Shown here: piece by piece, positions 8,598 to 45,228 of the stretch
Numbering within the stretch: the first letter of the stretch is position 1
Layout of the letters: each line of letters begins with the position of its first letter
From: Hyphomicrobium sp.
GTDB lineage: Bacteria > Pseudomonadota > Alphaproteobacteria > Rhizobiales > Hyphomicrobiaceae
NCBI GenBank assembly: GCA_017512425.1
Contig: JAFWGI010000015.1
Location: forward strand, 1 to 64,000
Direction of reading: 5' to 3'
Length of the DNA stretch: 64,000 bases
The notes under the pieces: generated by a model
The model's input: the letters and a program-made list of their open reading frames with translations, nothing else
What the model was told of the DNA's origin: nothing
Databases searched by the model: none
Translations under genes and position numbers: made by a program

Positions 8598-8603
8598 TGC
8601 GTC

Positions 8604-13489: not shown

Positions 13490-13513
13490 ACCTATGCCTC
13501 CGCTAGCGTTTGT

Positions 13514-13610: not shown

Positions 13611-13626
13611 ATAACCCTATTGACAT

Positions 13627-13644
13627 TAGTAAGATATCTTACTA
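13627..13644. promoter_or_regulatory. Perfect 18-base palindromic operator
   Basis: TAGTAAGATATCTTACTA is a perfect inverted repeat that begins one base after a TTGACA -35-like hexamer (13620-13625). A protein bound here would block a promoter reading towards the RHH gene at 13692. The site is distinct from the CTAGGCA repeats, so two DNA-binding proteins may act in this intergenic region. Confidence 0.5.
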
Positions 13645-13691
13645 GCGTACAACAGTCAATGAAAGTTTAATAGGAACCAGGGATAGCTGCC

Positions 13692-13928: not shown

Positions 13929-13950
13929 TAGCAACCAAGGTAGGTGGCCT

Positions 13951-14208: not shown

Positions 14209-14280
14209 GGTGGGCACAAACACGAAGTATTGCTGGCATAAACTTTTCAAAAATTGCGCATAATGTTGCAGGAGAACGAT

Positions 14281-14553: not shown

Positions 14554-14608
14554 CGAACAGGATCACCAAAGCGTCAACCGTATCGAAAACCCAACGGAGC
14601 ATTCCGCC

Positions 14609-20100: not shown

Positions 20101-22925
20101 CCCGTCAGCGCTTTCCACGTACCCGCGGCGCCTGGCACGCTCGCTTGGCCTCCAAGACGGCCCTCGACGCCTACTTCGCGCGCAACGGTCGTCACCTGAT
20201 CGGCAAAGATTGCGAGTGTATCCGTCATGTCGTTGATGGTTTCGGCGAGTGCGGCAACCTCACCTTTTGATTTCACCGTCAACTTCTGTTTGAGATCACC
20301 CTCTGCAACCGCCGTCACGACCTTCACGATGCCGCGGACCTGTTCGGTCAGGTTGGCAGCCATGACGTTAACGGTGTCCGTCAAATCTTTCCATGTGCCA
20401 GCGACGCCCGGAACCTGCGCCTGACCGCCGAGCTTGCCTTCCGTGCCGACTTCGCGCGCAACACGCGTCACTTCGGACGCGAACGCGTTGAGCTGGTCGA
20501 CCATCGTGTTGATCGTGTTCTTGAGTTCGAGAATTTCACCTTTCACGTCGACGGTGATCTTGCGCGACAAGTCTCCGCGCGCAACGGCGGTCGTCACTTC
20601 GGCGATGTTGCGGACCTGGCCGGTCAAGTTGCCTGCCATCGAGTTGACCGAGTCCGTCAAGTCCTTCCATGTTCCGGCGACGACACCTGGCACAACCGCT
20701 TGTCCGCCAAGACGGCCCTCGGTGCCCACTTCGCGTGCGACGCGCGTCACTTCCGCTGCGAATGAGCGGAGCTGCTCTACCATCGTGTTGAGCGTTTCCT
20801 TCAGCAGAAGGATCTCGCCGCGCACGTCGACCGTGATCTTCTTCGACAAATCGCCGCCAGCGATAGCGGTTGCGACTTCGGCGATATTGCGCACCTGAGC
20901 GGTCAGGTTGCTTGCCATGAAATTGACGTTGTCGGTCAAATCTTTCCACGTGCCCGCGACGCCGGGCACTTGCGCTTGGCCGCCAAGCTTACCCTCGGTG
21001 CCGACTTCACGCGCAACGCGCGTGACTTCGCCGGCGAACCCATTCAGCTGATCGACCATCGTGTTGATGGTCGCTTTGAGTTCAAGAATTTCGCCTTTTA
21101 CGTCCACGGTGATTTTCTTCGACAAGTCGCCGCGCGCGACGGCCGTCGTGACATCAGCGATGTTGCGGACCTGCGTCGTCAGGTTCGCGGCTAGCAGGTT
21201 GACGTTATCGGTCAAATCCTTCCATGTCCCTGCAACGCCGGGCACGTTCGCCTGTCCTCCGAGGCGTCCTTCGGTACCGACTTCGCGTGCAACGCGCGTG
21301 ACCTCACCGGCGAAACGGTTCAGCTGATCGACCATCGTGTTGATGGTCTGCTTGAGTTCCAAAACTTCGCCGCGCACATCGACGTCGATCTTTTTGGATA
21401 AGTCGCCGTTTGCGATGGCCGTTGAAACTTCGGCGATGTTGCGGACCTGGGTCGTCAGGTTGCTCGCCATCGAGTTGACGCTGTCGGTCAGGTCTTTCCA
21501 GGTTCCTGCAACGCCGCGCACGTCGGCTTGACCGCCGAGAATACCTTCGGTGCCGACTTCGCGCGCGACGCGCGTCACTTCCGACGCAAAACCGTTCAAC
21601 TGATCGACCATCGTGTTGATGGTTTCTTTAAGCTGGAGGATTTCGCCGCTGACGGTAACGGTGATCTTTTTCGACAGGTCGCCGCCGGCAATTGCCGTGG
21701 CGACTTCGGCAATGTTGCGGACTTGGCCTGTCAGGTTGCTGGCCATCGAGTTGACGTTGTCGGTCAGGTCTTTCCACGTACCGGCAACGCCGGTCACCTG
21801 CGCTTGCCCGCCGAGCTTTCCTTCAGTGCCGACTTCACGGGCGACGCGTGTCACTTCGCCAGCGAAGGCGTTCAGCTGATCGACCATCGTGTTGATGGTA
21901 TTTTTGAGTTCTAGAATCTCGCCCTTCACGTCGACAGTGATCTTGCGCGACAAGTCTCCGCGCGCGACCGCGGTCGTCACCTCGGCGATATTGCGGACTT
22001 GCGTCGTCAGGTTGGCTGCGAGCAAATTGACGTTGTCGGTCAAATCCTTCCAGGTTCCGGCAACACCCGGCACGACGGCCTGGCCACCGAGCCGACCTTC
22101 GGTACCGACTTCGCGCGCGACGCGCGTTACTTCTGCGGCGAACGAACGCAATTGATCGACCATCGTGTTGATGGCCTCTTTGAGCTGAAGGATTTCGCCA
22201 CGCACGTCGACGGTGATCTTTTTCGATAAGTCGCCGTTGGCAACTGCAATCGTCACATCGGCGATATTACGCACCTGAGCCGTCAGATTGCTGGCCATCA
22301 AGTTGACGCTCTCGGTCAATTCTTTCCAAACGCCGGTGACTTCCGTCACCTTGGCCTGACCGCCAAGCTTGCCGTCGGTGCCGACTTCGCGCGCGACGCG
22401 CGTCACTTCCGACGTAAACACCGATAACTGCTTGATCATGCTGTTGACGATATTGGCCGAACGCAGGAATTCGCCTTCCAGCGGGCGGCCATCGACGTCG
22501 AGCCGCATGGTCTGCATGAGGTCGCCCTGCGCAACGGCGCGGATCGTTCGCGTCACCTCGGCGGTCGGCCACAACAAATCGTCGATCAAAGAATTGATAG
22601 ACAATTCCATGCCGTGCCAGGCACCGGCGGCCGAACCCATCTTAACGCGCTGCTTGGTCTTGCCTTCCTGTCCCACGACCTGCCCGACACGCTCGAGCTG
22701 TTGCGCCATCTGCTCGTTGGAGCCGACGATTTCGTTGAACAGATCTGCGACTTTACCCCAGAGGTCGGGCCAGTCACCGGGCAGCCGAACGGAAAAGTTT
22801 CCACCCCGCATGTGCTGCAGAGCCTGCAACAATTGTCGAACTTCTGCGTTAGTTGATAAGCTCGTGTTGGCTATGTCGGATGCGATCGCATCGCTCGTAG
22901 ATGCGGATGTCAAATTGTCATCCAT
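17193..22925 (-). CDS. Giant soluble poly-HAMP hybrid histidine kinase with three receivers
   Basis: A 1910-residue protein. ATG at 22925 follows GGAGGGGG; an upstream in-frame extension of 39 residues lacks support. Order: linker and degenerate HAMP (about 1-170), nine ~92-residue double-HAMP repeats (about 170-990), GAF (about 1020-1165), coiled coil, HisKA with H1248 (MSHELRTPL), HATPase (about 1360-1480), and three receivers (about 1520-1640, 1643-1765, 1790-1910). No transmembrane segment is visible, so it is cytoplasmic. The layout recalls fungal group III osmosensor kinases, which have fewer HAMP repeats. No DNA-binding output exists in the operon; output is probably through other regulators. 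Confidence 0.9.
19960..22410 (-). repeat. Nine tandem 276-base coding repeats (HAMP array)
   Basis: Within the hybrid kinase the motif [19 protein letters not shown] recurs nine times at a 92-codon period. Each unit holds a second half with [15 protein letters not shown]. At DNA level the complement of an NTMVDQL codon run recurs every 276 bases (for example near 21055, 21331, 21607, 21883 and 22159). The seventh unit has one extra codon (PGVVAGTW). Third-position differences are common while the protein is nearly constant, which indicates selection rather than very recent duplication. Confidence 0.85.
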
Positions 22926-23123
22926 ATTACCCCCTCCGCAATCTGCCCAACGAAGGAGACAGCGAACACGCGAAAAAACTAAAAAATGAAGTGAACGGTA
23001 TTCCGGCATGCGCCAAACGCGCCGAGCCGGTTTTGGTTTCAACGCGCCGCAAGTTTTTTGCTTATTGCCGTCCGTAGATCAAAACGTTGAGATCGGCGGG
23101 CATCTGTTACCCGGAGTTTATCC

Positions 23124-28433: not shown

Positions 28434-29046
28434 CCCGGAAAAACACGTATCGTTCCGTAAATGCAGCGCGTGAGCTTAGGCGAGCTTGCGCTCCTAAGCC
28501 GAAAGATTGGCTCTCGAGTAACGCGGGACGATCCGTGGTTGCGACGCCGTCTTTTTGCCGTGTCGAGAGTTCCAGAAATCTTCAACGAGCAGTGCCGCAA
28601 GACGCGCTGCTCAATACGGCCGCCGCTCCGCAGACCGCTCGCCGGGCCTGGTTCTTCCATCCATCCACATTGACATCCATCCACGTCGACAGGCCATGCA
28701 CCGGATCGGACCGGTATTTCGCCGCGAGCGCTGGTCGAATTTTAACAATCCCAGACGTGCCGCCAACAACAGACTTGCCATCCATGCGATCAATATATAT
28801 ACCGGTCGGTACACTACGAAAATTACGTGTTCGGTGCGGGTCATTCGACTGGTGTTTCGTGAAGCAAACGTGAGCGCTGGTGCCGCGAGTGGGTTTTGCC
28901 CACCGCTGACGGACCCGGACTTTTTCAACGTGTAGCGGGGTGGGTCGGGCAGTTCAGACGCAAATAAACAATGGCGCAGCTTAGGCGACATCTCTGTTTA
29001 CGGCCGGATGGTGTGCCGGGACTGACGCCAAGAATGAGGAAACGCA
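28434..29046. other. Long gene-free region upstream of dmoA
   Basis: This 613-base interval separates the divergent SDR and dmoA genes. Open frames in it lack family features and binding sites and are rejected. It contains the best copy of the island's inverted repeat (28800-28811), 235 bases before dmoA, and a short direct repeat of CATCCATCCAC (near 28660 and 28676). The dmoA ribosome binding site GAGG lies just before 29047. No promoter hexamers stand out. Confidence 0.5.
28800..28811. promoter_or_regulatory. TetR-type operator copy 1 (dmoA)
   Basis: TACCG-GT-CGGTA, a perfect inverted repeat in the context TATACCGGTCGGTACA (28798-28813). It is the best match to the shared repeat found before five transcription units of the organosulfur island, 235 bases upstream of dmoA. 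Confidence 0.65.
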
Positions 29047-30477
29047 ATGAAGAAACGCATCATTTTAAATGCCTTCGATATGACGTGTGTCAGTCATCAG
29101 TCGGCCGGCACATGGCGCCATCCGTCGAGCCAGGCATCGAAATATAACGATATCGACTACTGGACCAATCTCGCGCGCGAGCTTGAGCGCGGCTGCTTCG
29201 ACACGATGTTTATCGCCGACGTCGTTGGCGTGTACGACGTCTATCGCGGTACTGCTGAGATGGCGCTCAAAGATGCTGCGCAAGTCCCGGTCAACGATCC
29301 GTTCGGCGCGATCTCCGCGATGGCTGCCGTCACCAGCAACGTCGGCTTCGGCGTGACGGCTGCCGTTACCTTCGAACATCCTTATCTTCTGGCGCGCCGC
29401 CTTTCGACGCTGGACCATCTGACGAAGGGACGAGTCGCCTGGAACGTTGTGTCGTCATACCTCAACAGTGCCGCCGTCAACGTCGGCATGGACCAGCAAA
29501 TGGCCCATGACGAGCGTTACGACATGGCCGACGAATACATGGACGTCGTCTACAAGCTGATGGAAGGTTCGTGGGAAGACGGCGCCGTTCATCGCAACAA
29601 AGAATCCGGCGTATTTACCGACGGAAGCAAAGTTCACCCGATCCGTCACAACGGTAAATACTACAAGGTTCCTGGCTTCCACCTTTGCGAGCCGTCGCCG
29701 CAACGTACGCCGGTTATCTTCCAGGCCGGTGCGTCGGGCCGTGGCCGTCAGTTCGCTGCACGACACGCAGAAGGCATGTTTGTTCTCGCGACCAGCGTTG
29801 AGCAGTGCAAGCCGATGACGGAAGACATTCGCAACCTCGCCGAAAAGGCCGGTCGCTCGCGCGATTCGATCAAGATTTTCGCGCTGCTGACGGTCATCAC
29901 CGGGCCGACCGATGAAGCCGCTCAAGCGAAATACGATGAGTACCTGTCCTATGCTAGCCCGGAAGGCATGCTGGCGCTTTACGGCGGTTGGACGGGCCTC
30001 GACTTCTCGAAGCTTGATCCGGACGCGCCGCTCGAAGCCGTTGAGAACGACAGTCTTCGTACGACGCTCGAATCGCTCACCAAGGGTCACGATGGCCCGG
30101 CATGGACGGTGCGCGATGTCATCAAGAATCGCTGCATCGGCGGTCTCGGCCCCGTATTGGTTGGTGGACCGAAGAAGGTCGCCGACGAACTGGAACGTTG
30201 GGTCGATGTCGGAGGCCTCGACGGCTTCAACCTCGCCTACGCTGTCACGCCTGGGACAACGACCGACTTCATCGATTTCGTTGTTCCTGAACTGCGCAAG
30301 CGCGGTCGCGCGCAATCATCTTATGCGCCTGGAACATTCCGTCAGAAGTTGATCGGAACGCCGGACGGCAAAGTTGAGAGCACGCATCCCGCTGCTCAGT
30401 ACCGTGGCGCATATGTCGGCAAGGAAAGCTGCGCGACGAACACACTCCCGTCGCCGTTCGCACAGCCATCCAAGTAG
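29047..30477 (+). CDS. dmoA: Dimethylsulfide monooxygenase, FMNH2-dependent subunit
   Basis: A 476-residue flavin-dependent monooxygenase of the bacterial luciferase superfamily, NtaA/SnaA/DszA group. From memory of the Hyphomicrobium sulfonivorans enzyme, the N-terminus (NAFDMTCVSHQSAGTWRHPS), the block FIADVVGVYDVYRG and the segment NPFGAISAM-like VNDPFGAISAMAAVT match closely. The reaction is dimethylsulfide + O2 + FMNH2 to methanethiol + formaldehyde. FMNH2 must come from a separate reductase; candidates are encoded at 33180 and 36282. ATG follows GAGG. It heads the island and is followed by a strong terminator. Assignment as DmoA is confident; activity is inferred. Confidence 0.93.
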   Translation: MKKRIILNAFDMTCVSHQSAGTWRHPSSQASKYNDIDYWTNLARELERGCFDTMFIADVVGVYDVYRGTAEMALKDAAQVPVNDPFGAISAMAAVTSNVGFGVTAAVTFEHPYLLARRLSTLDHLTKGRVAWNVVSSYLNSAAVNVGMDQQMAHDERYDMADEYMDVVYKLMEGSWEDGAVHRNKESGVFTDGSKVHPIRHNGKYYKVPGFHLCEPSPQRTPVIFQAGASGRGRQFAARHAEGMFVLATSVEQCKPMTEDIRNLAEKAGRSRDSIKIFALLTVITGPTDEAAQAKYDEYLSYASPEGMLALYGGWTGLDFSKLDPDAPLEAVENDSLRTTLESLTKGHDGPAWTVRDVIKNRCIGGLGPVLVGGPKKVADELERWVDVGGLDGFNLAYAVTPGTTTDFIDFVVPELRKRGRAQSSYAPGTFRQKLIGTPDGKVESTHPAAQYRGAYVGKESCATNTLPSPFAQPSK

Positions 30478-31385: not shown

Positions 31386-31492
31386 AGGCGGACGGCGGAC
31401 TGAGCGATAATAGCCTTTTATTTCAAAACGTTGCGTGTCGAAGTCACAGTTGTCATGAAATTTGGGGATCGGCGCCGTCAGTAGTTTGCGCG

Positions 31493-31504
31493 TACCAGTC
31501 GGTA
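31493..31504. promoter_or_regulatory. TetR-type operator copy 2 (porin)
   Basis: TACCA-GT-CGGTA, one mismatch in the left arm, followed by CA as in the other copies, 43 bases upstream of the porin start. A second looser copy (TACCG...CGATA, 31515-31530) adjoins it. Confidence 0.55.
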
Positions 31505-31546
31505 CAGTATGGTGTACCGATGAGTCGATACGAACGAGGGGACCAC

Positions 31547-32854
31547 ATGAGAAATATAACAAAACGTGTGTATAGCGTAGCGGCTGCGGCCGCATCCTTG
31601 ATTTGTGCGTTTGCATTGTCGCCCGTACAAGCTGCCGATCTCGGCGGGAACTGTTGCGCGGATCTCGAAGAGCGGATCGCAGAGCTTGAATCGATGGCCG
31701 TCAGAAAAGGCAATCGCAAAGTATCGCTTACGATTTCCGGTTGGGTTAGCGAGCAGATCGTTCACTGGGATGATGGCGTCGAGTCGAACACGTACATCAC
31801 CGGTCTGGGCTCGGCGTTTGCGAGTAACGTCAATTTCACCGGTAAGGCGCAGATCTCGCAAGATCTCAGTGCCGGATACGTGCTGCACATCGAAGCGATC
31901 ACTAGTGACGTCTACACGACGAATGCCGATACGTCGCGGGGTGGCGCAGCGATAACTGGCGGCCCTCCGAATTCTCTGCAGGTGCTTTATTCGTATTGGT
32001 ACCTCAAGAGCGAACAGTTGGGCCGGTTTGCTCTAGGTCAGATTTCTCCGGCTGACGACAGCGCCGTTCAAATGCTCGATAGCTCGGGGTCGCTCGTTGC
32101 CGCGTACTGGGTGGCCTACGACGTATTTGGCTTCAACGTTCGCGGAAATTTCGCGGCCGGCGATTCGGTCATCTGGGGTAACGCGTCGTCGTGCCGTGGG
32201 TTCGGCGGCGGACCTGGAGACTGTAACGGTTTGCCGGTCAATATCGTCCGCTACGACACGCCGGTCTTCGGCGGGTTCTCGGGTCGCGTGTCTTGGGGTG
32301 AAGACGACAACTGGGCTGTCGCAGCTCAGTACGTGAACAACAACTTCGGCGACATGACTGTCAAAGGTCTTTTGACCTATTCGGAGACGACGGATGCTCG
32401 CCAAGGCGCGCCAGCCGGCGGTGCTCTCGAATACATGATGGCGAGCGTCTACTTGCAGCATAACCCGACCGGCTTGTTTGCGCACGCTGCGTGGGGGCAG
32501 ATCGATCAATCCGTCAACCCGCTCAATAATCCTGAATCGGACACGTACTACATCAAGGCCGGCGCCCGCTTGAAGGCGGTGCCGCTTGGGGCGACAATTC
32601 CCTACGGCGAGTTTCTGCGTGCAACGGACAGTGCGTTTGTCGTGAATGACTCAGGGACGGCGGAACGTAGTGACGACGTTGGTCGCGTGGTTGCCGGCTC
32701 GGAAGCAACGTTCTGGGGCTTCGGCGTCGTACAAGAAATCGATGCTGCGGCGATGTCGGTCTGGCTGCGGTATCGCGAGCATGAACTCGACCTGCCGGGC
32801 GTCGACACCGAGAATATGTCGACGATCGCGTTCGGTGGCTTCATCAACTTCTAA
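31547..32854 (+). CDS. Outer membrane porin, Porin_2 family
   Basis: A 435-residue protein with a signal peptide (cleavage near PVQA-AD), then the short coiled coil DLEERIAELESMAVRKGNRK that starts many Hyphomicrobiales porins, and a beta-barrel beginning VSLTISGWVSEQIVHWDDGV and ending in an aromatic residue (GGFINF). ATG at 31547 with GAGGGG upstream is chosen over an in-frame ATG at 31520 because it begins the signal peptide. It would let small polar solutes such as dimethylsulfone or sulfonates cross the outer membrane; specificity is inferred from location only. Confidence 0.85.
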   Translation: MRNITKRVYSVAAAAASLICAFALSPVQAADLGGNCCADLEERIAELESMAVRKGNRKVSLTISGWVSEQIVHWDDGVESNTYITGLGSAFASNVNFTGKAQISQDLSAGYVLHIEAITSDVYTTNADTSRGGAAITGGPPNSLQVLYSYWYLKSEQLGRFALGQISPADDSAVQMLDSSGSLVAAYWVAYDVFGFNVRGNFAAGDSVIWGNASSCRGFGGGPGDCNGLPVNIVRYDTPVFGGFSGRVSWGEDDNWAVAAQYVNNNFGDMTVKGLLTYSETTDARQGAPAGGALEYMMASVYLQHNPTGLFAHAAWGQIDQSVNPLNNPESDTYYIKAGARLKAVPLGATIPYGEFLRATDSAFVVNDSGTAERSDDVGRVVAGSEATFWGFGVVQEIDAAAMSVWLRYREHELDLPGVDTENMSTIAFGGFINF

Positions 32855-32920: not shown

Positions 32921-33111
32921 CGGATACGTAGATTTACGGCTGCGGACGCTGCGGCACTGCAAAGTTTCTATTCCGAGCATATGAGATCGTTGTAAGATGG
33001 GTGGGCGCAAACCACGCGCGTCGCCTTGCGAATTTATTTAACAATTTTTTGAACTCTGCCCCCAAGGCGTTTCGATTCCGCTTGCGCCCCCGCACTTTTT
33101 TGGTCACTGTA

Positions 33112-33123
33112 TACCGGTCGATA
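33112..33123. promoter_or_regulatory. TetR-type operator copy 3 (FMN reductase operon)
   Basis: TACCG-GT-CGATA within TATACCGGTCGATACA, 57 bases before the FMN reductase start. It differs from copy 1 at one position. Confidence 0.6.
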
Positions 33124-33179
33124 CAAGATGCGAATAAAAGATGTCTTGGCGGCATTGTTAAGCCCTGGGGAGGGTACGA

Positions 33180-33851: not shown

Positions 33852-34967
33852 ATGGGCAAGAAAATCAATAAGAGCATAAAATTCGCGCATTGGGTCCCCA
33901 ATGTCAGCGGTGGCCTTGTCGTCAGCAAGGTGCAGCAGAAGACGGATTGGAGTCTTCAATACAATATCAAATTGGCTCGGATCGCCGAAGAAGTCGGCTT
34001 CGAGTACGCCCTCACGCAAATACGCTTCATGGGCAGCTATGGGGCCGAATATCAGCACGACTCGTTGATGTTCTCAGCGGCCTTGCTGGCCAATACCGAA
34101 CGCATGAATATCATCACCGCTGTCCTGCCGGGCATGTTCCATCCGGCGGTGTTGGCGAAGCATGGCGCGACGGCGGACCAGATATTCAATGGCCGGTGGG
34201 CGATTAACGTCGTCAGCGGCTGGTATCGCAAAGAGTACGACGCGCTCGGCGTGCAGTGGCTTGAGCATGACGAGCGATATGTCAGGTCGCGGGAATTTAT
34301 AGATATCCTTCGAGGGTCGTGGACTGAAGACAACTTCAGCTACAATGGCAAGTATTGGCAGATCAATGGCTACACATTGAAGCCGAAGCCCTTGATCCTG
34401 CCGGGCCGGCCTATGCCTGAAATTTTCCAGGGCGGAAACTCTGTCGCCGCGCAGCGTTTAGCAGCCGAGGCATCGGATTATCTCTGTCTCAACGGAGATT
34501 CCGTCAAAGGGCTAAAAGAGCAGATTGATGCGGTGACAAAGTTGGCGTCAGCACGCGGCCGCAAAGTAAAATTTGCTGCGAACGCGTTCGTGATCGCGCG
34601 CGAGACGGAGCTCGAAGCGCAGCAAGAACTAGAGCACATCATTGCGGCCGCTGATCATGAAGCTGTTGATGGCTTCAAAGAGGCCGTGAAGGAAGCCGGA
34701 CAGGCGAGCAAAGAAGGCAAGGGTATGTGGGCCAACTCCACGCAACGCGATCTGGTCCAGTACAACGATGGGTTCAAGACCAATCTCATTGGAACGCCCG
34801 AACAGATCGCTGAGCGCATTCACAATCTTCGTAAGATTGGCGTAGATATTCTCCTGTGTGGGTTCCTCCATTTTCATGAAGAAACGCGCTTTTTTGGAGA
34901 GCGCGTCATTCCGCTGGTGCGGGAGTTGGAATTGGCTGACCCGGTAAAGGAGCTCCATGTAGCATAG
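33852..34967 (+). CDS. sfnG: Dimethylsulfone monooxygenase, FMNH2-dependent
   Basis: A 371-residue luciferase-like monooxygenase. The N-terminus IKFAHWVPNVSGGLVVSKVQ, the segment YALTQIRFMGSYGAEYQHDS and FNGRWAINVVSGWYRKEYDA match SfnG. The reaction is dimethylsulfone + FMNH2 + O2 to methanesulfinate + formaldehyde. With DmoA this gives two C-S-cleaving flavin monooxygenases in one island. The ATG at 33852 has only a weak binding site. It lies between the FMN reductase and riboflavin genes on the same strand, so the block 33180-37840 is probably one operon. Confidence 0.92.
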   Translation: MGKKINKSIKFAHWVPNVSGGLVVSKVQQKTDWSLQYNIKLARIAEEVGFEYALTQIRFMGSYGAEYQHDSLMFSAALLANTERMNIITAVLPGMFHPAVLAKHGATADQIFNGRWAINVVSGWYRKEYDALGVQWLEHDERYVRSREFIDILRGSWTEDNFSYNGKYWQINGYTLKPKPLILPGRPMPEIFQGGNSVAAQRLAAEASDYLCLNGDSVKGLKEQIDAVTKLASARGRKVKFAANAFVIARETELEAQQELEHIIAAADHEAVDGFKEAVKEAGQASKEGKGMWANSTQRDLVQYNDGFKTNLIGTPEQIAERIHNLRKIGVDILLCGFLHFHEETRFFGERVIPLVRELELADPVKELHVA

Positions 34968-35063
34968 GGCATATCACCCGGAGCTGTTGGCCGCTCAAAA
35001 GAGCTTTAAGTTCGGCCCGCGTGGCGCCTGGTGTGATTGCCCGTTGCGAGGAGGAGAGGAACG

Positions 35064-36209
35064 ATGAACCTCATGCTACACCGCGAAGGCGTTGAAGAAA
35101 TTAGCTCGGCAGAGGAGATCGTCGAAGAGGCGAAAGCCGGGCGTTGCTTCGTACTCGTCGACGATGAAAATCGCGAGAATGAAGGTGACATCGTAATCCC
35201 TGCGCAATTTGCGACGGCCGAGGTCGTGAATTTCATGGCGCGTCAAGCGCGCGGTCTGATTTGTTTGGCGTTGACGCCGCAACGTGTCGCGCATCTCAAG
35301 CTCAGCGCCGTAACGCAGTCGGTTTCAACGGGGTTTCAGACGGCTTTCGCGCTTTCGATCGAGGCGCGGACCGGCGTTACGACAGGGATTTCCGCCGCCG
35401 ACCGCGCCAGAACGATCGCCGTCGCGATCAATCCTGAAAGCCGAGTTCAAGATCTTGTCACGCCTGGCCACATCTTTCCGTTGATCGCACGCGAGGGTGG
35501 CACTTTGGTCAGGGCGGGGCACACAGAAGCCGCAGTCGATGTAGCGCGTATCGCCGGCCTCAATCCGTCGGGCGTAATTTGCGAAGTCATCAATGATGAC
35601 GGCACAATGGCGCGTCTGCCGGACTTGAAAAAGTTCGCACGTCTTCATGGCCTGAAGTTGGGCACGATCGCCGACTTGATCGCGTATCGGTTGCGCAACG
35701 AGCGTCTCATCGAACAAGTGGCCGAGACCGGCATACACCACCCGAATTTCGGCGAGTGGCAAATGGTCGTCTACCGAGACAACGTCGAGTTCGCCGAACA
35801 TGTCGTGCTTATTAAAGGCGATCTTTCTCGCGGCGAAAATGCACGCGGATCGTTCGACGGCGCACCGGTTCAGCCAACGCTCGTCTGTGTCGACAGGTTT
35901 GATTTCGTGCGCGACGTCGTTCTGGCACGTGATGGCGAAGGCCTGCACAGCGCAATGCACAAAATCATGCGCCGAGGCCGCGGCGCAATCGTGATGATGA
36001 ATGATTCAAGGCGGACTGCGCTCTCGGACCGCGTGAACAATCTAAGCCCGCATCGCCGTCCAGATCCGGAGATGCGCGAGTACGGGATCGGCGCGCAAAT
36101 TCTCGTCGATATCGGTGTGCGAGAAATGATCATGCTCTCCAATCGTAACAAGACACTCGTTGGTGTCGAAGGGCATGGCCTGATCGTGGTTGGCCGCGAA
36201 CCAGTTTGA
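35064..36209 (+). CDS. ribB: 3,4-dihydroxy-2-butanone-4-phosphate synthase with degenerate GTP cyclohydrolase II domain (RibBX)
   Basis: A 381-residue protein. The N-terminal RibB domain (about 8-205) has the acidic loop [13 protein letters not shown] and [10 protein letters not shown], so it should make the four-carbon precursor of riboflavin from ribulose-5-phosphate. The C-terminal ~170 residues resemble RibA in fold, but the zinc motif (C-x-T-G-D... RCDC) is absent: the matching region reads [20 protein letters not shown]. This RibBX form is common in alphaproteobacteria. The missing activity is encoded at 39849. ATG at 35064 follows AGGAGGAGAGGA. No FMN riboswitch is evident upstream. 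Confidence 0.88.
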
Positions 36210-36281: not shown

Positions 36282-36800
36282 ATGTTTTTGAGAAAGAAAC
36301 AGCCAGAGGCGCGCGTAACAACCTCGCCGGTCGACGCAGATGAATTTCGCGCGGTCATGCGGCAGCTCGCGGGCTGCGTGACGGTGATCACAACGGAATT
36401 GAATGGCGAGCTCTATGGTTTTACGGCAACGGCCGTTTGCAGCGTTTGTGCGACGCCGCCGACGATCCTCATTGCCGTGAACAAGTCGGCACGCACGCAT
36501 CCCCATATCGACAAAAAAGGTGCCTTTGCGGTGAACATTCTGGCCGATGGACAGAAGCACATTGCAGAACATTTCGCGACAAAGGGCGACAATCAATTCC
36601 AGTCCGTTCCGCACTTTGTGAACGCGCGCGGCGTTCCGATCATCGAAGGTGCGGCGGCGCAGCTGCATTGTGAGGTGCAGGATCGCATCGCGATTGGAAC
36701 ACACACGTTATTTGTAGCGCACATCGTCGGCACGGGCGTGCAGGACAGCACGCCGTTGATCTATCACGATGCCAAGTATGGCCTTGTTACGCATATCTGA
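36282..36800 (+). CDS. Flavin reductase, HpaC/Fre-like; candidate DMS monooxygenase reductase
   Basis: A 172-residue flavin reductase domain protein: FRAVMRQLAGCVTVITTELN, YGFTATAVCSVCATPPTILI and NKSARTHPHI are the family blocks (flavin phosphate binding and isoalloxazine contact). It would use NAD(P)H to make free FMNH2. The predicted mass near 19 kDa fits what I recall for the small DmoB reductase of DMS monooxygenase, so it is a good candidate for DmoB, but that is inference. It lies between ribB and ribF and overlaps ribF by one base. Confidence 0.82.
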   Translation: MFLRKKQPEARVTTSPVDADEFRAVMRQLAGCVTVITTELNGELYGFTATAVCSVCATPPTILIAVNKSARTHPHIDKKGAFAVNILADGQKHIAEHFATKGDNQFQSVPHFVNARGVPIIEGAAAQLHCEVQDRIAIGTHTLFVAHIVGTGVQDSTPLIYHDAKYGLVTHI

Positions 36801-37840
36801 TGGATCGTTCGACAATGACGAAATACACGTCGAATGACATCGTGATACGGGCCGGCGACCACTTGGAATCGCTGCCGGACAATGTCCGTAGCGCGCACGT
36901 CGTCGTTGGCAATTTTGACGGCGTCCATATTGGGCACCGCGCTCTCCTGCAGCGCGCGTCGGAGCTGTCTGCGCGCGACGGCTCTCCGGTGGTGGCACTG
37001 ACGTTTGAGAAGTCGGCGGATTGCGTCGCCGGCACCGCTGAGCCAAAGCTGAATTACCGCCTGACCGACCGGCAGGAGAAGGTGCGATTACTTTTGGAGT
37101 GCGGTGTCGATGCCGTTGTAACGCAGATCCTCGACGCGCGCAGCGCGACCGTCGCTCCTGCGTCGTTCGTCGAAACGACGCTTGCGCGTGATTTTGCTGC
37201 AAGGTCGCTGATTGTTGGGCAAAATTTCCGTTTGGGGACCGACGGGCGCCCAACGTCCAATGACTTCGTGGAAACCGGGCCTAAGGTGGGGATTTCTGTA
37301 CACGTGGTGCCCCCACCTGTGGCAAGGCGCGGAAATGAGTACGTCACGTCGTCGGCTGTTCACGCGTTGATTGAAGCCGGAGACATAACGACAGCGAATG
37401 CATTTCTGGGCCGACGCTGGGCTTTAGACGGCATCGTGGTGCACGGCGATAAACGTGGGCGAGAGCTTGGCTTTCCGACCGCGAACCTGGCGCTTAACAT
37501 CGATGTCGGCCTGAAATTCGGGGTCTATGCTGTCCGGCTTCTTCTCAATCGGCGCATACTTGAAGGCGTCGCATGCTATGGCAAACGACCGCAATTTGAC
37601 GACGGTGCGCCGCGTCTTGAGGTGCATCTTCTCGATTTTTGCGACGACATCTATGGCCAGCAGGTTTGCATTGAGTTTGTCGCGTTCCAACGCACAGAAA
37701 TGATGTTCTGCAGCGTGAATGCGCTCGTCCAGCAAATGACCGCGGACTGCGATGATTCGCGACGCCTGCTGCGCTGCGAAGACACCTCGGCAATTGTGAG
37801 CACGCTTGATCGGCGGCGTGCGTCGCCGATGCTGCATTAG
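36800..37840 (+). CDS. ribF: Bifunctional riboflavin kinase / FAD synthetase
   Basis: A 346-residue protein. The N-terminal FAD synthetase has the nucleotidyltransferase motif GNFDGVHIGH (37-46); the C-terminal flavokinase has GRELGFPTANLAL (about 217-229) and GVYAVRLLLN. It converts riboflavin to FMN, and possibly FMN to FAD. It overlaps the reductase gene by one base, so it is cotranscribed with sfnG and ribB. Such a copy in a catabolic operon is probably additional to a housekeeping ribF elsewhere. The C-terminal 40 residues (Cys- and Arg-rich) look unlike the family and may be loosely constrained. Confidence 0.88.
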   Translation: MDRSTMTKYTSNDIVIRAGDHLESLPDNVRSAHVVVGNFDGVHIGHRALLQRASELSARDGSPVVALTFEKSADCVAGTAEPKLNYRLTDRQEKVRLLLECGVDAVVTQILDARSATVAPASFVETTLARDFAARSLIVGQNFRLGTDGRPTSNDFVETGPKVGISVHVVPPPVARRGNEYVTSSAVHALIEAGDITTANAFLGRRWALDGIVVHGDKRGRELGFPTANLALNIDVGLKFGVYAVRLLLNRRILEGVACYGKRPQFDDGAPRLEVHLLDFCDDIYGQQVCIEFVAFQRTEMMFCSVNALVQQMTADCDDSRRLLRCEDTSAIVSTLDRRRASPMLH

Positions 37841-37890
37841 GCGGCCAGTATGTTGCGATCAAACGTACGATTACGTCTTGCCTGGACATA

Positions 37891-37902
37891 TACCGATCGA
37901 TA
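37891..37902. promoter_or_regulatory. TetR-type operator copy 4 (sulfite dehydrogenase)
   Basis: TACCG-AT-CGATA within TATACCGATCGATACA, only 18 bases before the soxC ATG. Its position overlaps the expected leader, suited to repression by roadblock or promoter occlusion. Confidence 0.55.
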
Positions 37903-37919
37903 CATACACAAAAGGTGCA

Positions 37920-39290
37920 ATGACAATCCACACGGAGTGCGACGTGTCAAAAGGCGAAAGCAAAGATATCCAATCGCAGGACACCGAAGCCGAGCCTTGC
38001 CCATGCAAAGAAGGCATGACGCCGGACGCGATCGACCCAGTGCGGCGGAAGTTTTTATTTTCAGCAGTCGCCGCTACGACTGTTGGCGCCATGGCGCCGT
38101 CCGTCAGCGTCGCCGCCAATAAAAAAGCTGTAACGCCGGGTGCTGTTGAATACGACGTCGCAGACGATCCGACAAAAGTCATGGGGCGCGCGCTCCACGA
38201 AGATAGCGGTTACGGCACCCGGTCGCAGTTTGAGACTGAAATTCGCACGAAGGCTGATAATCCGAGTGACATAACGTCGTGGACATTCACGCCTCTGGCC
38301 GCGACACTCGGAAATCTGACGCCATCAGGCCTGCACTTCGAGCGGCACCACGGAGGCATTCCAACGATCGATCCGTCGCGCCATGAACTTATTGTTCATG
38401 GCCTCGTCGACACCGCCAAGAAGTTCACGTTGTCGGAGCTGAAGAGCCTCCCGTCAATCACCCGCAAGTATTTCATCGAGTGCTCTGGAAACACCTTGGG
38501 CGAGTGGGCCAAACCCACGGGCAAAAGCGTGCAGATTACGCATGGATTGCTGAGTACGTCGGAATGGACGGGCGTTCCGTTTGCGACACTCGCGCGTCAT
38601 GTCGGTTTGAAAGAGAATGCAGCCTGGGTTCTGGCGGAAGGTGCGGATGCTGCCGTCATGACGCGCAGCATTCCGATCGACAAGCTCATGTCGGACGCAC
38701 TTATTGCGTATGGCCAGAACGGTGAAGCGCTCCGGCCGGAGCAGGGGTATCCGCTTCGTCTCGTTCTGCCGGGCTATGAAGGCAATACGCAAATTAAATG
38801 GTTGCGGCGCCTGCAAGTCAGCGATCGCCCATTTATGACGAAAGAAGAAACGTCGAAGTACTCCGATCTGATGAAGGATGGCCGCTCGAAGCTTTTCACG
38901 CTGTCCATGGACGCCAAGTCCGTCATCACGTTTCCGTCCGGCGACATGCTTTTGCCGAAGCCCGGATATTACGAGATCCGAGGCTTTGCTTGGACAGGCC
39001 GCGGCCGCATTCACACCGTCGATATTTCACTGAATGGCGGAAAGGCATGGGTGCCCGCACACATCGACAGTGTGCCAGAGCCGATGAGCTCTGTTCGATT
39101 TAGTTTTCCCTGGGTTTGGGATGGGAAGCCGGCGATCCTGCAAAGCCGCTGCAGCGACGACACGGGCTACGTTCAGCCAAGCCGCGCAGAGCTGTTGCCA
39201 TTGCGCGGTCTGAACTCCGTCTATCACTACAACGCGATCCAAAGTTGGGCCGTTGCGTCAGACGGAAAGGTAACCAATGTTCACGTCTAG
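37920..39290 (+). CDS. soxC: Molybdopterin sulfite/sulfane dehydrogenase, SoxC family
   Basis: A 456-residue Tat-exported molybdoenzyme. Twin arginine R42-R43 with KFLF (residues 41-47) starts the signal region, after an unusually long Cys-containing leader. The molybdenum ligand is C188 (FIECSGN); HGLLSTSEWTGVPFATLARH, GADAAVMTRSIPIDK and PEQGYPLRLVLPGYEGNTQIK are typical SoxC blocks, and YEIRGFAWTGRGRIHTVDIS starts the dimerisation domain. It would oxidise sulfite (or sulfane sulfur if SoxYZ is present) in the periplasm. ATG at 37920 with AAAGGTG is chosen; an upstream open extension overlaps ribF. It overlaps the cytochrome gene, its electron acceptor. Confidence 0.88.
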   Translation: MTIHTECDVSKGESKDIQSQDTEAEPCPCKEGMTPDAIDPVRRKFLFSAVAATTVGAMAPSVSVAANKKAVTPGAVEYDVADDPTKVMGRALHEDSGYGTRSQFETEIRTKADNPSDITSWTFTPLAATLGNLTPSGLHFERHHGGIPTIDPSRHELIVHGLVDTAKKFTLSELKSLPSITRKYFIECSGNTLGEWAKPTGKSVQITHGLLSTSEWTGVPFATLARHVGLKENAAWVLAEGADAAVMTRSIPIDKLMSDALIAYGQNGEALRPEQGYPLRLVLPGYEGNTQIKWLRRLQVSDRPFMTKEETSKYSDLMKDGRSKLFTLSMDAKSVITFPSGDMLLPKPGYYEIRGFAWTGRGRIHTVDISLNGGKAWVPAHIDSVPEPMSSVRFSFPWVWDGKPAILQSRCSDDTGYVQPSRAELLPLRGLNSVYHYNAIQSWAVASDGKVTNVHV

Positions 39291-39852
39291 AATTATTGGT
39301 GCTGCCCTTGCGATCTCGTTGGCATCAGCGCTGGCTTTTGCGCAGTCTCGCGAGATTAGCGTCGGAACGCCTGTCAGTCCGCAGGAGCTTGCGAAGTATT
39401 TCGCTGTTCAGCCTGGCGGTGCAGGATTGCCTTCCGGTCGCGGGACGAGGGACAAAGGGCGCGAACTTTACGTGGAGCGGTGCGCACATTGCCATGGTGA
39501 GAAGCTCGAAGGAATTCATGAAGCCGCAGGGCCTGCGCTCATCGGTGGCCGAGGCACGTTGACGAGCGACAAACCGCTTCAAACGGTTGAGAGCTATTGG
39601 CCCTACGCGTCGACGCTTTACGACTACATTTGGCGCGCCATGCCGTTTGACAATCCGGGTTCGCTGACCACGGACGAAGTGTATTCGCTGGTGTCGTACA
39701 TTTTGAATGAAGGCAACGTCATAAAAAGCGAAGAGCTGGACGCAGAGTCACTGTCAAAAGTCGTCATGCCAAACGTGGACAATTTTTATCAATCGCTTGG
39801 CCCCGATCTTCGCATCTACCGAAGCAGCGACGTGAAAGGTGGCGGGAAGTGA
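39277..39852 (+). CDS. soxD: Periplasmic cytochrome c, SoxD-like electron acceptor
   Basis: A 191-residue protein with signal peptide (cleavage near LAFA-QS) and one c-type haem site CAHCH (C69, C72, H73). The later block ESYWPYASTLYDYIWRAMPF followed by DNPGSLTTDEVYSLVSYIL is characteristic of SoxD and carries the probable axial Met. Only one haem is present, whereas classical SoxD has two, so it may equally be called SorB-like. It would accept electrons from the SoxC-like subunit. Its start overlaps soxC by 14 bases. Confidence 0.85.
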   Translation: MFTSRIIGAALAISLASALAFAQSREISVGTPVSPQELAKYFAVQPGGAGLPSGRGTRDKGRELYVERCAHCHGEKLEGIHEAAGPALIGGRGTLTSDKPLQTVESYWPYASTLYDYIWRAMPFDNPGSLTTDEVYSLVSYILNEGNVIKSEELDAESLSKVVMPNVDNFYQSLGPDLRIYRSSDVKGGGK

Positions 39853-40541
39853 CATCGGTGACGATTGCGAGGAAGCGTGCAAGATCCGGAGCGGCTGTGT
39901 TTGACAAGGGCTCGCCACCACCCCGTTCATTGGCGCTGCCGGCGGGCTGGTCCAATCGCACGGCACTTCCAATCGACGTGCAGGGCCGGGAAGTCATCCT
40001 CGAGTCTTACGGTTATCAGGGTTCCAACGAGCAGGAGCAGATTTTAGTTTTGATCCATCGGCCCGCTAACGTGCCGGATGCAGTCGTGCCATTGGTGCGC
40101 ATCCATTCCGGTTGCGTGACTGGAGACGTGTTCCGCTCATTACGCTGCGATTGCCATCAACAATTGCAGCTCGCGTTGCGCGTCATCTGCAAGGCAACAT
40201 ATGGCGTCATGCTGTACTTTCCGTACCATGAAGGCCGCGGCATAGGCCTGTTCAAGAAGATGCAGGCCTATGCCCGGCAAGACTGCGGGTCCGATACCGT
40301 GGATGCGAATATTGAAGTCGGTGCGGCGGTCGATGCTCGTGATTATACGCTGGCTGCCAAGATACTGACCGATCTCGGTTCACCGGTCGTACGATTGCTG
40401 ACAAACAATCCTGAGAAAGCGCGCGCGCTTTCTCTCAATGGCGTGCGGGTTGTCGATTGTGTGCCAGTGCGGATTGAGCCCAACAAGCACAGCGCGCGCT
40501 ATCTCATGACAAAGCGCAAACGCATGTCGCACGACATCTAG
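39849..40541 (+). CDS. ribA: GTP cyclohydrolase II
   Basis: A 230-residue enzyme for the first committed riboflavin step (GTP to diaminohydroxypyrimidine phosphate). Zinc ligands are C89 (SGCVTGD), C100 and C102 (RCDC); the substrate loop YHEGRGIGLFKKMQAYARQD is intact, as is LLTNNPEKARAL. The GTG start overlaps the soxD stop, so it is the third gene of the sox operon. It supplies exactly the activity that the C-terminal domain of RibBX (35064) has lost, linking two transcription units of the island by one pathway. Confidence 0.9.
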   Translation: MTSVTIARKRARSGAAVFDKGSPPPRSLALPAGWSNRTALPIDVQGREVILESYGYQGSNEQEQILVLIHRPANVPDAVVPLVRIHSGCVTGDVFRSLRCDCHQQLQLALRVICKATYGVMLYFPYHEGRGIGLFKKMQAYARQDCGSDTVDANIEVGAAVDARDYTLAAKILTDLGSPVVRLLTNNPEKARALSLNGVRVVDCVPVRIEPNKHSARYLMTKRKRMSHDI

Positions 40542-40608: not shown

Positions 40609-41319
40609 TCAGCGGTCTCTTTTTTCGACGATCGACAAAGTCATGTCGGCAAAAATATCGGCGATATCTTTGTATGACTGACGGCCGCTCGGTTTCAGCC
40701 AGAGAAAGCTGTAAAAGTACATTCCCAAAATGCCTTTGATGCCGACGCTCGGGAGTGCGCGGAAGTATCCTTTCTTCTCACCCTCGCGGAGCGTTGCGGT
40801 CCAGATGTCCTGATAGGACTGATGCAGCTTCGAAACAATCTGGTGGCGCTGACCGGTCAGGCAATCGGCTTCTCGGAAACACACCGTCATTTCGAACAGA
40901 TTTGCGAAAATGATCTGCATGAGCTGTCTGCTCAGGAGATAGATACGCTTTCTCGGATCGGGTTCTGATTCCAAGGCTTCACGGCCCGTAACCACAAGGT
41001 TCTCGATGTAGCGAACCACGATCCCAAACAGCAAATCTTCTTTGCTGCTGATGTGGTAGTACAGCGCGCCGCGTCCGAGCCCCACCGCCTCGCCAATTTC
41101 TGCGACGCCGACCGCGCGATATCCGCGCGTTGCGAAAAGCTCGGCGGAAATCTTTTGAATGCGCTCGTACTGCTGGTGTCCGGCAATGGTCACCTTGCTA
41201 TTCGCCGCCGCCGAATCTGCGGCTGATGCGTATGGACTAGTCGGTACAATTGGGCTAAGCTGCGCTGCTGACCGCGCTGCTTCTGTATCGGTCAGTTTTT
41301 TTGATCGCGTGCGTGACAA
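40609..41319 (-). CDS. TetR-family transcriptional regulator, candidate island regulator
   Basis: A 236-residue regulator. After a long ~50-residue low-complexity leader, the HTH is IQKISAELFATRGYRAVGVA then IGEAVGLGRGALYYHISSKE (about 55-95), the standard TetR block; the rest is a helical ligand-binding domain. The TTG start at 41319 is supported by GGGAGG seven bases upstream. It is convergent with ribA and divergent from an MFS gene. Palindromes of TetR type in front of five island units make it the best candidate repressor. The inducer might be dimethylsulfone, DMS or a breakdown product; unknown. Confidence 0.85.
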   Translation of the reverse strand: MSRTRSKKLTDTEAARSAAQLSPIVPTSPYASAADSAAANSKVTIAGHQQYERIQKISAELFATRGYRAVGVAEIGEAVGLGRGALYYHISSKEDLLFGIVVRYIENLVVTGREALESEPDPRKRIYLLSRQLMQIIFANLFEMTVCFREADCLTGQRHQIVSKLHQSYQDIWTATLREGEKKGYFRALPSVGIKGILGMYFYSFLWLKPSGRQSYKDIADIFADMTLSIVEKRDR

Positions 41320-43063: not shown

Positions 43064-43505
43064 GCCGTCCCATCTGAGCTTGCGCGGATCCAAACCCGCG
43101 CGCCGAAAACGATTGTCGCGTGCGTGCGCCTGCGAGCTGGGCGTACGGCGTACCATGCCGTTTGTCGCGAAATTGGCGACCCTGTTTGCAATGGCGCAGC
43201 CAAGCAATTGATGCAGCGCGGCAAGGCTTTGCAGCCTTTTGAAGGCCAAACGGCTTGCGCATCGCGCGACATTATAGCATAGTCCGACCGATCGGTACAG
43301 AATGGCGACGGCGGTACGTTCAATGCAAACGTGCCGTTCAAAGCATACCGGTCGCGATCGGTCGTGCGGCGCCCGCAGTGAAGCAGCGCCATTGCCAAGG
43401 GAAAGTCGCCTCTCGTGGAAAGGGGGGCGTCGTCGTCTCTCGGCGCTTACCTGAAAAATTAAAGTTCCGAAAAAATAACAACAGCGGGACCCAAAGGGGA
43501 AACAA
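43064..43505. other. Intergenic region before the 10-TM gene
   Basis: No gene is seen in these 442 bases. It holds the island repeat copy 5 (43286-43297), a looser neighbour beginning TACCGGT at 43346, and a GGGG-rich ribosome binding region just before 43506. The A/T-rich last 60 bases are typical of an untranslated leader. Confidence 0.45.
43286..43297. promoter_or_regulatory. TetR-type operator copy 5 (10-TM protein)
   Basis: GACCG-AT-CGGTA followed by CA; one mismatch in the left arm. It lies 209 bases before the start of the 10-TM protein, a distance similar to copy 1 and dmoA. Confidence 0.5.
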
Positions 43506-44606
43506 ATGACTTCAAGAACAGATGCAAAAAGCCTATCCGGCCAGACTGCGCCGGGGGTGGAGGTTGCGCCGTTCCGCCCGGCCGAAGCTGCGCAAGGTTT
43601 CGCGTGGATCTACGGCCTATCGATCATCTCATGCTACCTGGTGAACCTGTGGGTCACGGCGAATCCGATTGGGCCGTGGCGCGGCGAGGATATCGCAAAG
43701 TCATTCTGGCTGGATAACGTCAGCTGGCAGATTTTCTCCGCGTGGTGGGTTTGCTTCTTCGCTGTCTGCAGCTTTTGGCCATTCAATTCGATTTCCGACA
43801 AGATCGTCAGAGGTGTTGCTGTCGTCGGCGTCTCTTGGATTCTCGGCTGGTGGAGCGCAAAGCTCATCTTCCTAATCGGGCCCGGCGCTGACGGCATTTT
43901 TCCGCTCGTGGGCACGACTTGGTTTCTTTTGGCGTTCTGCTGCTTTGCGGGCGGAAATTTCCTTGTCGCGAAGCTCCCACCAGAGCGACAGTTTTTAGTT
44001 CATTTGCTGCTGTTTACCGGCCTGACATACGTCATCACGCATTCAGCCATCAAATGGGTTCCAGCATGGTGGTTTCCATTCCTGCTCGTCGGCCTCGCAA
44101 CGAGTACGTTGCCATACCTGACGCGCGGACTGGCGCAGCCCGGACGCGCGGTCGTGATGATCTCTATCCTGTTCGCTTGCGTTGCATTGTGCGTTCAGAT
44201 TTCATCCGCAGCTGGTTTTTGGGATGTCACGGCGTCGCCGATTTCGGCGTTCTGGACGATGGGTCATCCAACGCCGGATAACTTCTGGCTGCTGTGCTTC
44301 ATGACAGCCACGTCCATCAACTATGCTCTGCCAATTATCACGCACAATTGGCCATTTACAAAAATCGCAATGCCATGGGGCGGCTTGCTGGCGATCGTAT
44401 TTTATCTCGTGCTCGACGTTGTCGTAGCCAGTCTGCTGGTGAAGCTTGTTGGGCCGGTATTCTCCAGCATGGAAGAGCTGCTCACGTATGCATACATGGG
44501 TGTGAACTGGTCGCTTACCATCCCTCTCGTGTTTGGTATCGGCCTGCAACATCCGTATCTTTGGACGGGTCAGAAGACGCCCGGCGATTGGGATGACGTA
44601 GCTTGA
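43506..44606 (+). CDS. Unrecognised 10-TM membrane protein of the organosulfur island
   Basis: A 366-residue integral inner-membrane protein with about ten hydrophobic segments (starting near residues 34, 70, 100, 128, 160, 185, 212, 255, 290 and 330) and many Trp residues (for example WWSAKLIF and WVPAWWFPFL). The N-terminal ~28 residues are cytoplasmic-looking and polar. I do not recognise the family; it lacks MFS, ABC or TRAP motifs. It has its own operator copy and a leader with a good AAAGGGG site, and is followed by a hairpin, so it is a single-gene unit. A transporter or membrane sensor/enzyme for a sulfur compound is possible. Confidence 0.7.
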   Translation: MTSRTDAKSLSGQTAPGVEVAPFRPAEAAQGFAWIYGLSIISCYLVNLWVTANPIGPWRGEDIAKSFWLDNVSWQIFSAWWVCFFAVCSFWPFNSISDKIVRGVAVVGVSWILGWWSAKLIFLIGPGADGIFPLVGTTWFLLAFCCFAGGNFLVAKLPPERQFLVHLLLFTGLTYVITHSAIKWVPAWWFPFLLVGLATSTLPYLTRGLAQPGRAVVMISILFACVALCVQISSAAGFWDVTASPISAFWTMGHPTPDNFWLLCFMTATSINYALPIITHNWPFTKIAMPWGGLLAIVFYLVLDVVVASLLVKLVGPVFSSMEELLTYAYMGVNWSLTIPLVFGIGLQHPYLWTGQKTPGDWDDVA

Positions 44607-44634: not shown

Positions 44635-44664
44635 AGCGCCCGGCGTTCACCACCGCCGGGCGCT
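44635..44664 (+). terminator. Hairpin terminator after the 10-TM gene
   Basis: A perfect 11-base GC-rich stem, AGCGCCCGGCG (44635-44645) with CGCCGGGCGCT (44654-44664). The T-run afterwards is weak. Confidence 0.65.
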
Positions 44665-44799: not shown

Positions 44800-45111
44800 T
44801 TATGAGTTGTCACCGGGCACTTTTGACGCGAGCACGTCGACTTTCTCAATTACGGGCGGAGCAGAAAGCAAGTCATCAGCTTTCGCCATCAAAGCGGCTG
44901 CGATCGGTCCCTCAAGATGTGCTTTTCGTCCAGATTCCGAGGGAAATGCGTCGAAAATGCCAAAGCTGCTAGATGAGAAACGTAAGGCAAACCAGGCCGG
45001 CATTCCTTTCTCGGCCTTGGTCAATGGCAGCGCACTTTCCAAGAAGTGCTGCAGTTCTTCTTCCTTGCCGGCCTTGGCTTCGAGACGGACGTATAAACCA
45101 AGCTTTACCAT
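44800..45111 (-). CDS. Antibiotic biosynthesis monooxygenase (ABM) domain protein
   Basis: A 103-residue ferredoxin-like fold protein: VKLGLYVRLEAKAGKEEELQ, SALPLTKAEKGMPAWFALRF, FGIFDAFPSESGRKAHLEG. It belongs to the YgiN/ABM group of small monooxygenases or quinol-handling proteins; substrate unknown. ATG at 45111 (GAGGAT just upstream) is chosen over a longer start 20 residues earlier that lacks homology. Divergent from the GlxA-type regulator, which may control it. Confidence 0.8.
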   Translation of the reverse strand: MVKLGLYVRLEAKAGKEEELQHFLESALPLTKAEKGMPAWFALRFSSSSFGIFDAFPSESGRKAHLEGPIAAALMAKADDLLSAPPVIEKVDVLASKVPGDNS

Positions 45112-45228
45112 CGAATATCCTCGTGTGTTGCAGTCAACACGCCGACGATATCGAACGGGTAATTCCATCATATTGGCAGCATCGACAAAATTGGTATCAA
45201 TCTGGCCATTAGCATCGCAATTCTAACG

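Follow-up and report, generated by a model that had tools for sequence, protein, structure and literature searches.

A Trp-rich protein with ten predicted membrane helices, encoded in a 64,000-nucleotide stretch of Hyphomicrobium sp. DNA (hereafter the window), represents an uncharacterised family whose role is testable. Its clearest partner is the dimethyl-sulfide (DMS) monooxygenase DmoA rather than the dimethyl sulfone monooxygenase SfnG, and the operator sites make a strong case, at the level of sequence, that its gene is a member of the same regulon (Table 1). The protein is probably a gate for small uncharged molecules.

Table 1. Coordinates of the regulon features in the window.
Feature	Coordinates	Strand	Basis
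Operator upstream of dmoA	28798..28813	+	exact core match
DmoA, dimethyl-sulfide monooxygenase	29047..30477	+	921 bits to PDB 6ak1
Operator upstream of porin-like gene	31491..31506	+	1 mismatch
Outer-membrane protein, presumably porin-like	31520..32854	+	directly after the gene's homologue in L002, L003, L015
Operator upstream of FMN reductase and sfnG	33110..33125	+	exact core match
SfnG, dimethyl sulfone monooxygenase	33852..34967	+	TIGR04021, 566.7 bits (cut-off 382.95)
SoxC-type sulfite dehydrogenase, ORF 5' end probably over-long	37806..39290	+	TIGR04555, 526 bits (cut-off 420)
Operator upstream of soxC-cytochrome c	37889..37904	+	exact core match
TetR-family regulator, proposed ligand-responsive repressor of the regulon	40609..41319	-	Pfam TetR_N, TetR_C_24
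Operator-like site, tetR 5' end	41233..41248	+	identical 16 letters in L004, L006, L011, L064, L066
Operator upstream of membrane protein gene, CCGACCGATCGGTACA	43284..43299	+	exact core match
Leader, operator end to ATG, 206 nt	43300..43505	+	no Rfam match
Trp-rich ten-helix membrane protein gene	43506..44606	+	366 aa, stop included
Terminator-like hairpin without T run	44635..44664	+	centroid 11-bp stem

The gene, its operator and its neighbours

The reading frame starts with ATG, with AAGGGGA as a good ribosome-binding site 6-12 nt upstream, and by comparison with its 17 homologues (identity 47-80%) it is a real coding sequence. It is one of a kind, with no second copy in its own genome. 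The exact operator core ACCGRTCGRTACA occurs four times in the 3.45-Mb genome (28801, 33113, 37892 and 43287), all in one 15-kb cluster; about 0.4 matches are expected genome-wide from the base composition of the window. With at most one mismatch, 14 matches were found genome-wide, against 5 for a reversed control pattern. When the window was scanned with a weight matrix trained on the four other cluster sites (28798, 31491, 33110 and 37889), the site at 43284 was among the best non-training sites, and a site at 1528, in the phage-like part, scored equally.

The operator is present upstream of the gene in nine of the twelve loci scanned from the sulfur clade, the branch of the family described below (window, L002-L006, L011, L064 and L066). 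L008 has a divergent site only, L013 and L065 have none directly upstream, and the scan left out L007 and L017. No operator was found upstream of the gene in L009, L010 and L012. In the Paracoccaceae MAG G658, the gene lies on the L005 contig with an operator 49 nt upstream of its start, and another contig (L085) carries a cluster of dmoA, flavin reductase, ribBA and soxC that has an operator of this kind; this sharing of an operator between separate contigs suggests regulation in trans without neighbourhood. The initial annotation had given the gene its own operator copy and regarded it as a separate member of the regulon, and the exact core together with its retention in relatives bears out both statements.

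Two further elements proposed around the gene were upheld in part. The leader is indeed long; a 150-nt stretch of it is only marginally more stable than its shuffled versions (z -1.9; 6 of 200 equally good), and a riboswitch was discarded as no Rfam family matched. The proposed hairpin terminator is a strong G+C hairpin, contained in an 81-nt stretch of -37.2 kcal/mol (z -5.4), and a consensus terminator scan omits it because no run of T follows.

The TetR-family protein would bind the ACCGRTCGRTACA operators, and a homologue of it was found near the gene in eight other sulfur-clade loci. DmoA of the window is 83% identical to the Hyphomicrobium sulfonivorans protein. Besides the TetR protein, the other neighbours include two FMN/flavin reductases, riboflavin genes, a cytochrome c and an MFS protein, and most of the window neighbours recur around the homologues. 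The regulon has its own riboflavin/FMN supply (35037-36209, 36282-36800, 36800-37840 and 39849-40541), comprising a ribB fusion with a GTP cyclohydrolase II domain of weak score, ribA as a gene of its own, a ribF-type enzyme and flavin reductases, which is fitting for the heavy FMN demand of DmoA and SfnG. The protein that we take to be porin-like is conserved in the regulon and has no Pfam match, either in the window (E<=0.01) or in L002 (11337-12608; E<=1).

A small protein gene at 44800-45171 (-) also has no Pfam match, and its product presumably resembles antibiotic-biosynthesis monooxygenases; L002 and L003 have a homologue after dmoA, L004 has one near the membrane protein gene, and L006, L064 and L066 have one just downstream of it. 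Elsewhere in the window, a gene at 17193-23042 (-) encodes a hybrid sensor kinase of 1949 residues, in which many near-identical repeats in tandem, which we take to be HAMP-like, precede receiver domains. Phage-like genes, presumably terminase, tape-measure and integrase-like, occupy positions 1-15000 at the contig end.

Distribution and genomic contexts of the family

A total of 17 distinct homologues were obtained after merging records of equal coordinates (window, L002-L013, L017, L064 from G1155, L065 from G191, and L066 from G152), drawn from 12 named loci in GTDB genomes, one plasmid, and further genomes of the order and family. Two of them are broken, L007 by a stop (10751-10753, Paracoccus MAG) and L013 by a frameshift (near 2316, Methyloligella draft), possibly through sequencing errors. 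The gene was found in 8 of 103 genomes of the family sample, in 2 of 125 from the Paracoccus group, in 1 of 117 from the Paraburkholderia group, where two relics also occur, and in 1 of 200 from the Lichenicoccus family; a phylum-wide profile search recovered it in 1 of 398 genomes, the window's own. Viral contigs gave 20 pattern matches and no relatives. In a phylogenetic tree, midpoint-rooted for drawing only, the 13 proteins of the sulfur clade separate from the other four with support 100/100, and eleven positions, mostly in TM4 and adjoining it, distinguish the two groups (10 versus 4 rows). The gene order in H. sulfonivorans S1 and strain D-2 is operator, gene, porin-like gene, FMN reductase, sfnG, and the interval from the gene to the porin-like gene contains no strong operator site; in Methyloligella and its relative G191 the order is soxC, cytochrome c, gene.

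Among the 297 genomes of the order sample, the same four carry the gene and DmoA (at least 79% identity), and all four also carry SfnG, which exceeds its cut-off in 20. In the 32 further genomes listed at E<=1e-150, DmoA-like proteins reach 55% identity at most. Hypergeometric p values, uncorrected for kinship (three of the four genomes belong to one family), are 3e-9 with DmoA and 1.5e-5 with SfnG. DmoA of at least 76% identity was found in 13 of 16 gene-bearing genomes tested, which are all 13 of the sulfur clade; relatives in the Paraburkholderia and Lichenicoccus genomes reach 49-50% only, and Acidocella has none at E<=1e-100. SfnG exceeds the cut-off in nine of the twelve sulfur-clade genomes tested (G1155 not among them). 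The co-occurrence with dmoA anticipated by the initial annotation is confirmed throughout the sulfur clade, and that with sfnG holds in most genomes; G658, G660 and G661 have no SfnG above the cut-off, which lowers the case for a strict SfnG partner. A second type of DmoA-like locus (77.7%) was observed on a plasmid of Paracoccus sp. MA (L082, 13986-16567), adjoining an ssuD-like alkanesulfonate monooxygenase gene; a search confined to this plasmid found no homologue of the membrane protein.

Three of the 17 homologues, from P. rhynchosiae (L010), P. phenoliruptrix pSYM (L017) and Lichenicoccus (L012), lie in Dke1/glyoxalase/D-lactate clusters without sulfur genes. The remaining one is on an Acidocella contig that shows only part of a 3-oxoacid CoA-transferase. 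The neighbours in the three loci are Dke1, a SnoaL-like/NTF2 protein, three SDRs, a VOC protein, an AraC-type regulator and D-lactate dehydrogenase, and the two loci from Paraburkholderia also have GloB. Dke1 scores 196 bits to the acetylacetone-cleaving enzyme of PDB 3bal, and GloB and Dld exceed their NCBIfam cut-offs; the VOC protein stays below that of lactoylglutathione lyase (131 bits, cut-off 165), and the Pfam match of the NTF2 protein is also below cut-off. According to the part of PMC7226712 available to us, Dke1 converts acetylacetone to acetate and methylglyoxal, and glyoxalase converts methylglyoxal to lactate; acetylacetone would be the substrate of these clusters. In two further Paraburkholderia genomes, a 21-residue, 86%-identical relic of the gene (L068, 4963-5025; L069, 4950-5012) adjoins the SDR that neighbours the gene in intact clusters. 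The Dke1 clusters on plasmids of Caballeronia SBC1 and Tistrella have no homologue within the 24-kb stretches examined, so the membrane protein is not indispensable in this second context.

Since three of the 17 homologues are found in acetylacetone-cleavage clusters, a specificity of the protein for sulfur is unlikely. The initial annotation had suggested a transporter for a sulfur compound or a new membrane enzyme; it is supported as to the regulon, the lack of a known family and the organosulfur link through dmoA, and its sulfur-only scope is not.

The two contexts also bear on a protective or sensory function, in which the protein would export or seal against toxic aldehydes, or sense the compound, and be dispensable for uptake. 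Formaldehyde is a product of DmoA/SfnG family enzymes. Reactive aldehydes would arise in both contexts, formaldehyde in one and methylglyoxal in the other (the latter from the available part of PMC7226712). However, no sensor domain was found in the protein with Pfam and NCBIfam, and regulators are already present, TetR in the regulon and the AraC type in the other clusters; we consider such a function improbable.

Sequence, topology and fold of the protein

The description of the protein as Trp-rich with ten membrane helices stands. Trp accounts for 23 of its 366 residues, and 12 Trp are invariant among 14 different aligned rows, as are Y36, S42, N47, D70, N71, Q75, R102, K119, R161, R207, S233, N281, Y330, N334, S336 and Y351. 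An AlphaFold model of the window protein, based on 11 rows only, has ten main membrane helices (mean pLDDT 71.5, pTM 0.72), and a second model with the Paraburkholderia homologue first has similar helices at lower confidence (pLDDT 63.4). The modelled topology places both termini inside, and K+R counts agree with it: 4-11 on the modelled cytoplasmic side against 0-3 on the periplasmic side, the cytoplasmic count being higher in 14 of 14 rows. The periplasmic side and the helices carry invariant aromatics and few charges. An internal duplication of TM1-4 and TM7-10, prompted by two 'WPF' loops, was rejected, as 4 of 40 column-shuffled controls scored at least as high as the half-versus-half profile comparison (15.8).

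No His, Cys or Glu and a single Asp are invariant in the 14 aligned rows, so the family has no conserved metal site or bis-His haem site. This result weighs against the reading as a membrane enzyme or an enzyme's membrane partner, for example a quinone- or cytochrome-linked oxidoreductase acting with SoxC and cytochrome c or with the SDRs, which we judge unlikely. The gene does directly adjoin cytochrome c in Methyloligella and G191 and lies near an SDR in Paraburkholderia, the same SDR beside which the relics are kept; searches of Pfam and NCBIfam, on the other side, gave no enzyme family match. A metal or haem enzyme in general is made less probable by the absence of invariant ligands. The invariant His/carboxylate ligands expected of a membrane metallo-monooxygenase (AlkB- or pMMO-like) are missing apart from the one Asp, and so is the invariant His pair of a b-haem membrane anchor (MsrQ-like), the best-conserved His being H179 in 71% of rows.

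Searches of Pfam, NCBIfam, PHROGs and PDB, by sequence and by profile, returned no match to the window protein and show it to be novel at the sequence level, in line with the earlier remark that it has no family motif. The 15 aligned members gave nothing below E 0.3 in Pfam, where only YlaH and DUF7860 appeared, by chance. The protein matched no MFS profile in Pfam or NCBIfam, whereas its neighbour at 41828 scores 94.8 bits to MFS_1. With the moderate-confidence model, Foldseek gave several weak MFS rows, among them the best match, 6s4m at E 0.14, and TehA ranked 45 at E 2.3. VIA-align against 998 chains gave a single Z of at least 5, for a designed helical barrel (Z 6.0, 6.4 A over 204 residues); MFS rows had Z 4.3 or less, and TehA was absent from the best 50 of the 998 chains. 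Known transporter folds thus appear as weak rows only, and given the quality of the models the fold searches may be taken neither to assign a fold nor to demonstrate a new one. Of the checks suggested earlier, the profile search supports the absence of a known family and the structure comparison yielded nothing significant. No known transporter family was assigned and the co-occurrence with organosulfur genes is present, both in keeping with the initial annotation. No paper on this membrane protein came up within the literature searches performed.

The same searches bear on a possible anion exporter, in which the ten-helix protein would be a channel passing cytoplasmic sulfite (or methanesulfinate) to periplasmic SoxC, with an organic acid as its cargo in the sister clade. 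Its mode of action would resemble that of the TehA/SLAC1/Ssu1 anion channels, with no family membership implied. Those channels have ten helices. A possible sulfite role would be common to them and the window protein, although no sequence match links them: none of the 15 aligned members matched their (TDT) Pfam profiles at E<=10. The export reading would account for the proximity of soxC to the gene in 12 of the 13 sulfur-clade loci (on a second contig in the thirteenth, a MAG), for cytochrome c and the gene order in Methyloligella and G191, and for the invariant K119 in TM3. However, the aligned members lack any Pfam match below E 0.3, the acetylacetone-type clusters produce no sulfite, and the MFS gene of the regulon, which is beside soxC in L007, is an equally good candidate. 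We regard an anion exporter as rather unlikely, and a sulfite-only exporter is further lowered, as the non-sulfur clade argues against it.

Proposed role and comparison with known systems

Passage of substrate is the simplest role for a charge-poor, aromatic-rich bundle without catalytic ligands that is co-regulated with the pathway and leads a porin operon in two genomes. A hint of transport comes from the order operator, gene, porin-like gene, FMN reductase, sfnG in H. sulfonivorans S1 and strain D-2, and a hint of the substrate from the three homologues beside the Dke1 pathway for another small neutral dimethyl compound. In both contexts, cytoplasmic oxygenases attack a small, neutral substrate that bears methyl groups, the substrate of the second being the presumed one. 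We see about an even chance that the protein lets small neutral methyl compounds through the inner membrane, as a channel or carrier. The substrates would be DMS, DMSO or dimethyl sulfone here; for the sister clade we propose a diketone or a diketone precursor. Transport itself and its direction are part of the proposal, and uncoupled facilitated diffusion would be the favoured mode.

According to this proposal, the TetR-family repressor would leave the ACCGRTCGRTACA operators when the compound is present, and the membrane protein gene would then be expressed along with dmoA, sfnG, soxC, the porin gene and the genes for flavin supply. The compound would cross the outer membrane via the porin and the inner membrane via the ten-helix protein, which would let it reach the cytoplasmic flavin monooxygenases. 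DmoA and SfnG would then release formaldehyde and one-carbon sulfur compounds, and sulfite would be oxidised by SoxC.

Several points count against a carrier. DMS, a volatile and lipid-soluble compound, may cross the inner membrane without a carrier. No transporter family matched, no convincing fold match came from the moderate-confidence models, and the membrane protein has no homologue on the Paracoccus sp. MA plasmid, where a DmoA-like gene is present. The Caballeronia SBC1 and Tistrella Dke1 clusters that lack it, the two broken homologues and the use of p values uncorrected for kinship weigh on the same side. To our knowledge, uptake of DMS, DMSO and dimethyl sulfone by bacteria is usually passed over as diffusion. 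The available parts of PMC13352529, PMC9259527, PMC6548844, PMC7226712 and PMC4433239 mention no carrier for these compounds.

Comparison with known systems sets the protein apart. DmoA/DmoB of H. sulfonivorans (PDB 6ak1) belongs to the same regulon, and in the S1 genome the homologue L002 and the DmoA gene are some 7 kb apart; DmoA itself is a flavin enzyme and soluble, and the available parts of PMC13352529, PMC9259527 and PMC6548844 mention no membrane protein for DmoA/DmoB. SfnG is shared with the sfn/msu genes of Pseudomonas, and dimethyl sulfone is a likely substrate; as far as the available sources go, regulation there is by sigma54/SfnR, in contrast to the TetR-type operator and dedicated membrane protein of the window regulon. 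For the Dke1 pathway of acetylacetone degradation (PDB 3bal), in whose cluster with glyoxalase and D-lactate dehydrogenase the sister clade sits, the available part of PMC7226712 mentions no membrane component, and the word 'transporter' occurs 0 times in that paper. The MsmEFGH methanesulfonate importer likewise serves import of a C1 sulfur compound in methylotrophs (available part of PMC4433239); it is an ABC system with a binding protein for an anion, whereas the window protein is a single ten-helix chain without ABC parts.

A more far-reaching proposition, with the balance somewhat against it, is that the protein is the founding member of a new transport-protein family. This family would give neutral methyl-sulfur compounds (dimethyl sulfone, DMSO and DMS) their first dedicated route across the inner membrane, acetylacetone-type diketones being served by the sister clade, and would select by an aromatic pore rather than by charge. 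A rare family that tracks DmoA closely and recurs beside a chemically parallel pathway is a concrete candidate for knock-out. If it is a carrier, small neutral molecules would gain a new transporter family, and DMS degraders of the DmoA type a marker.
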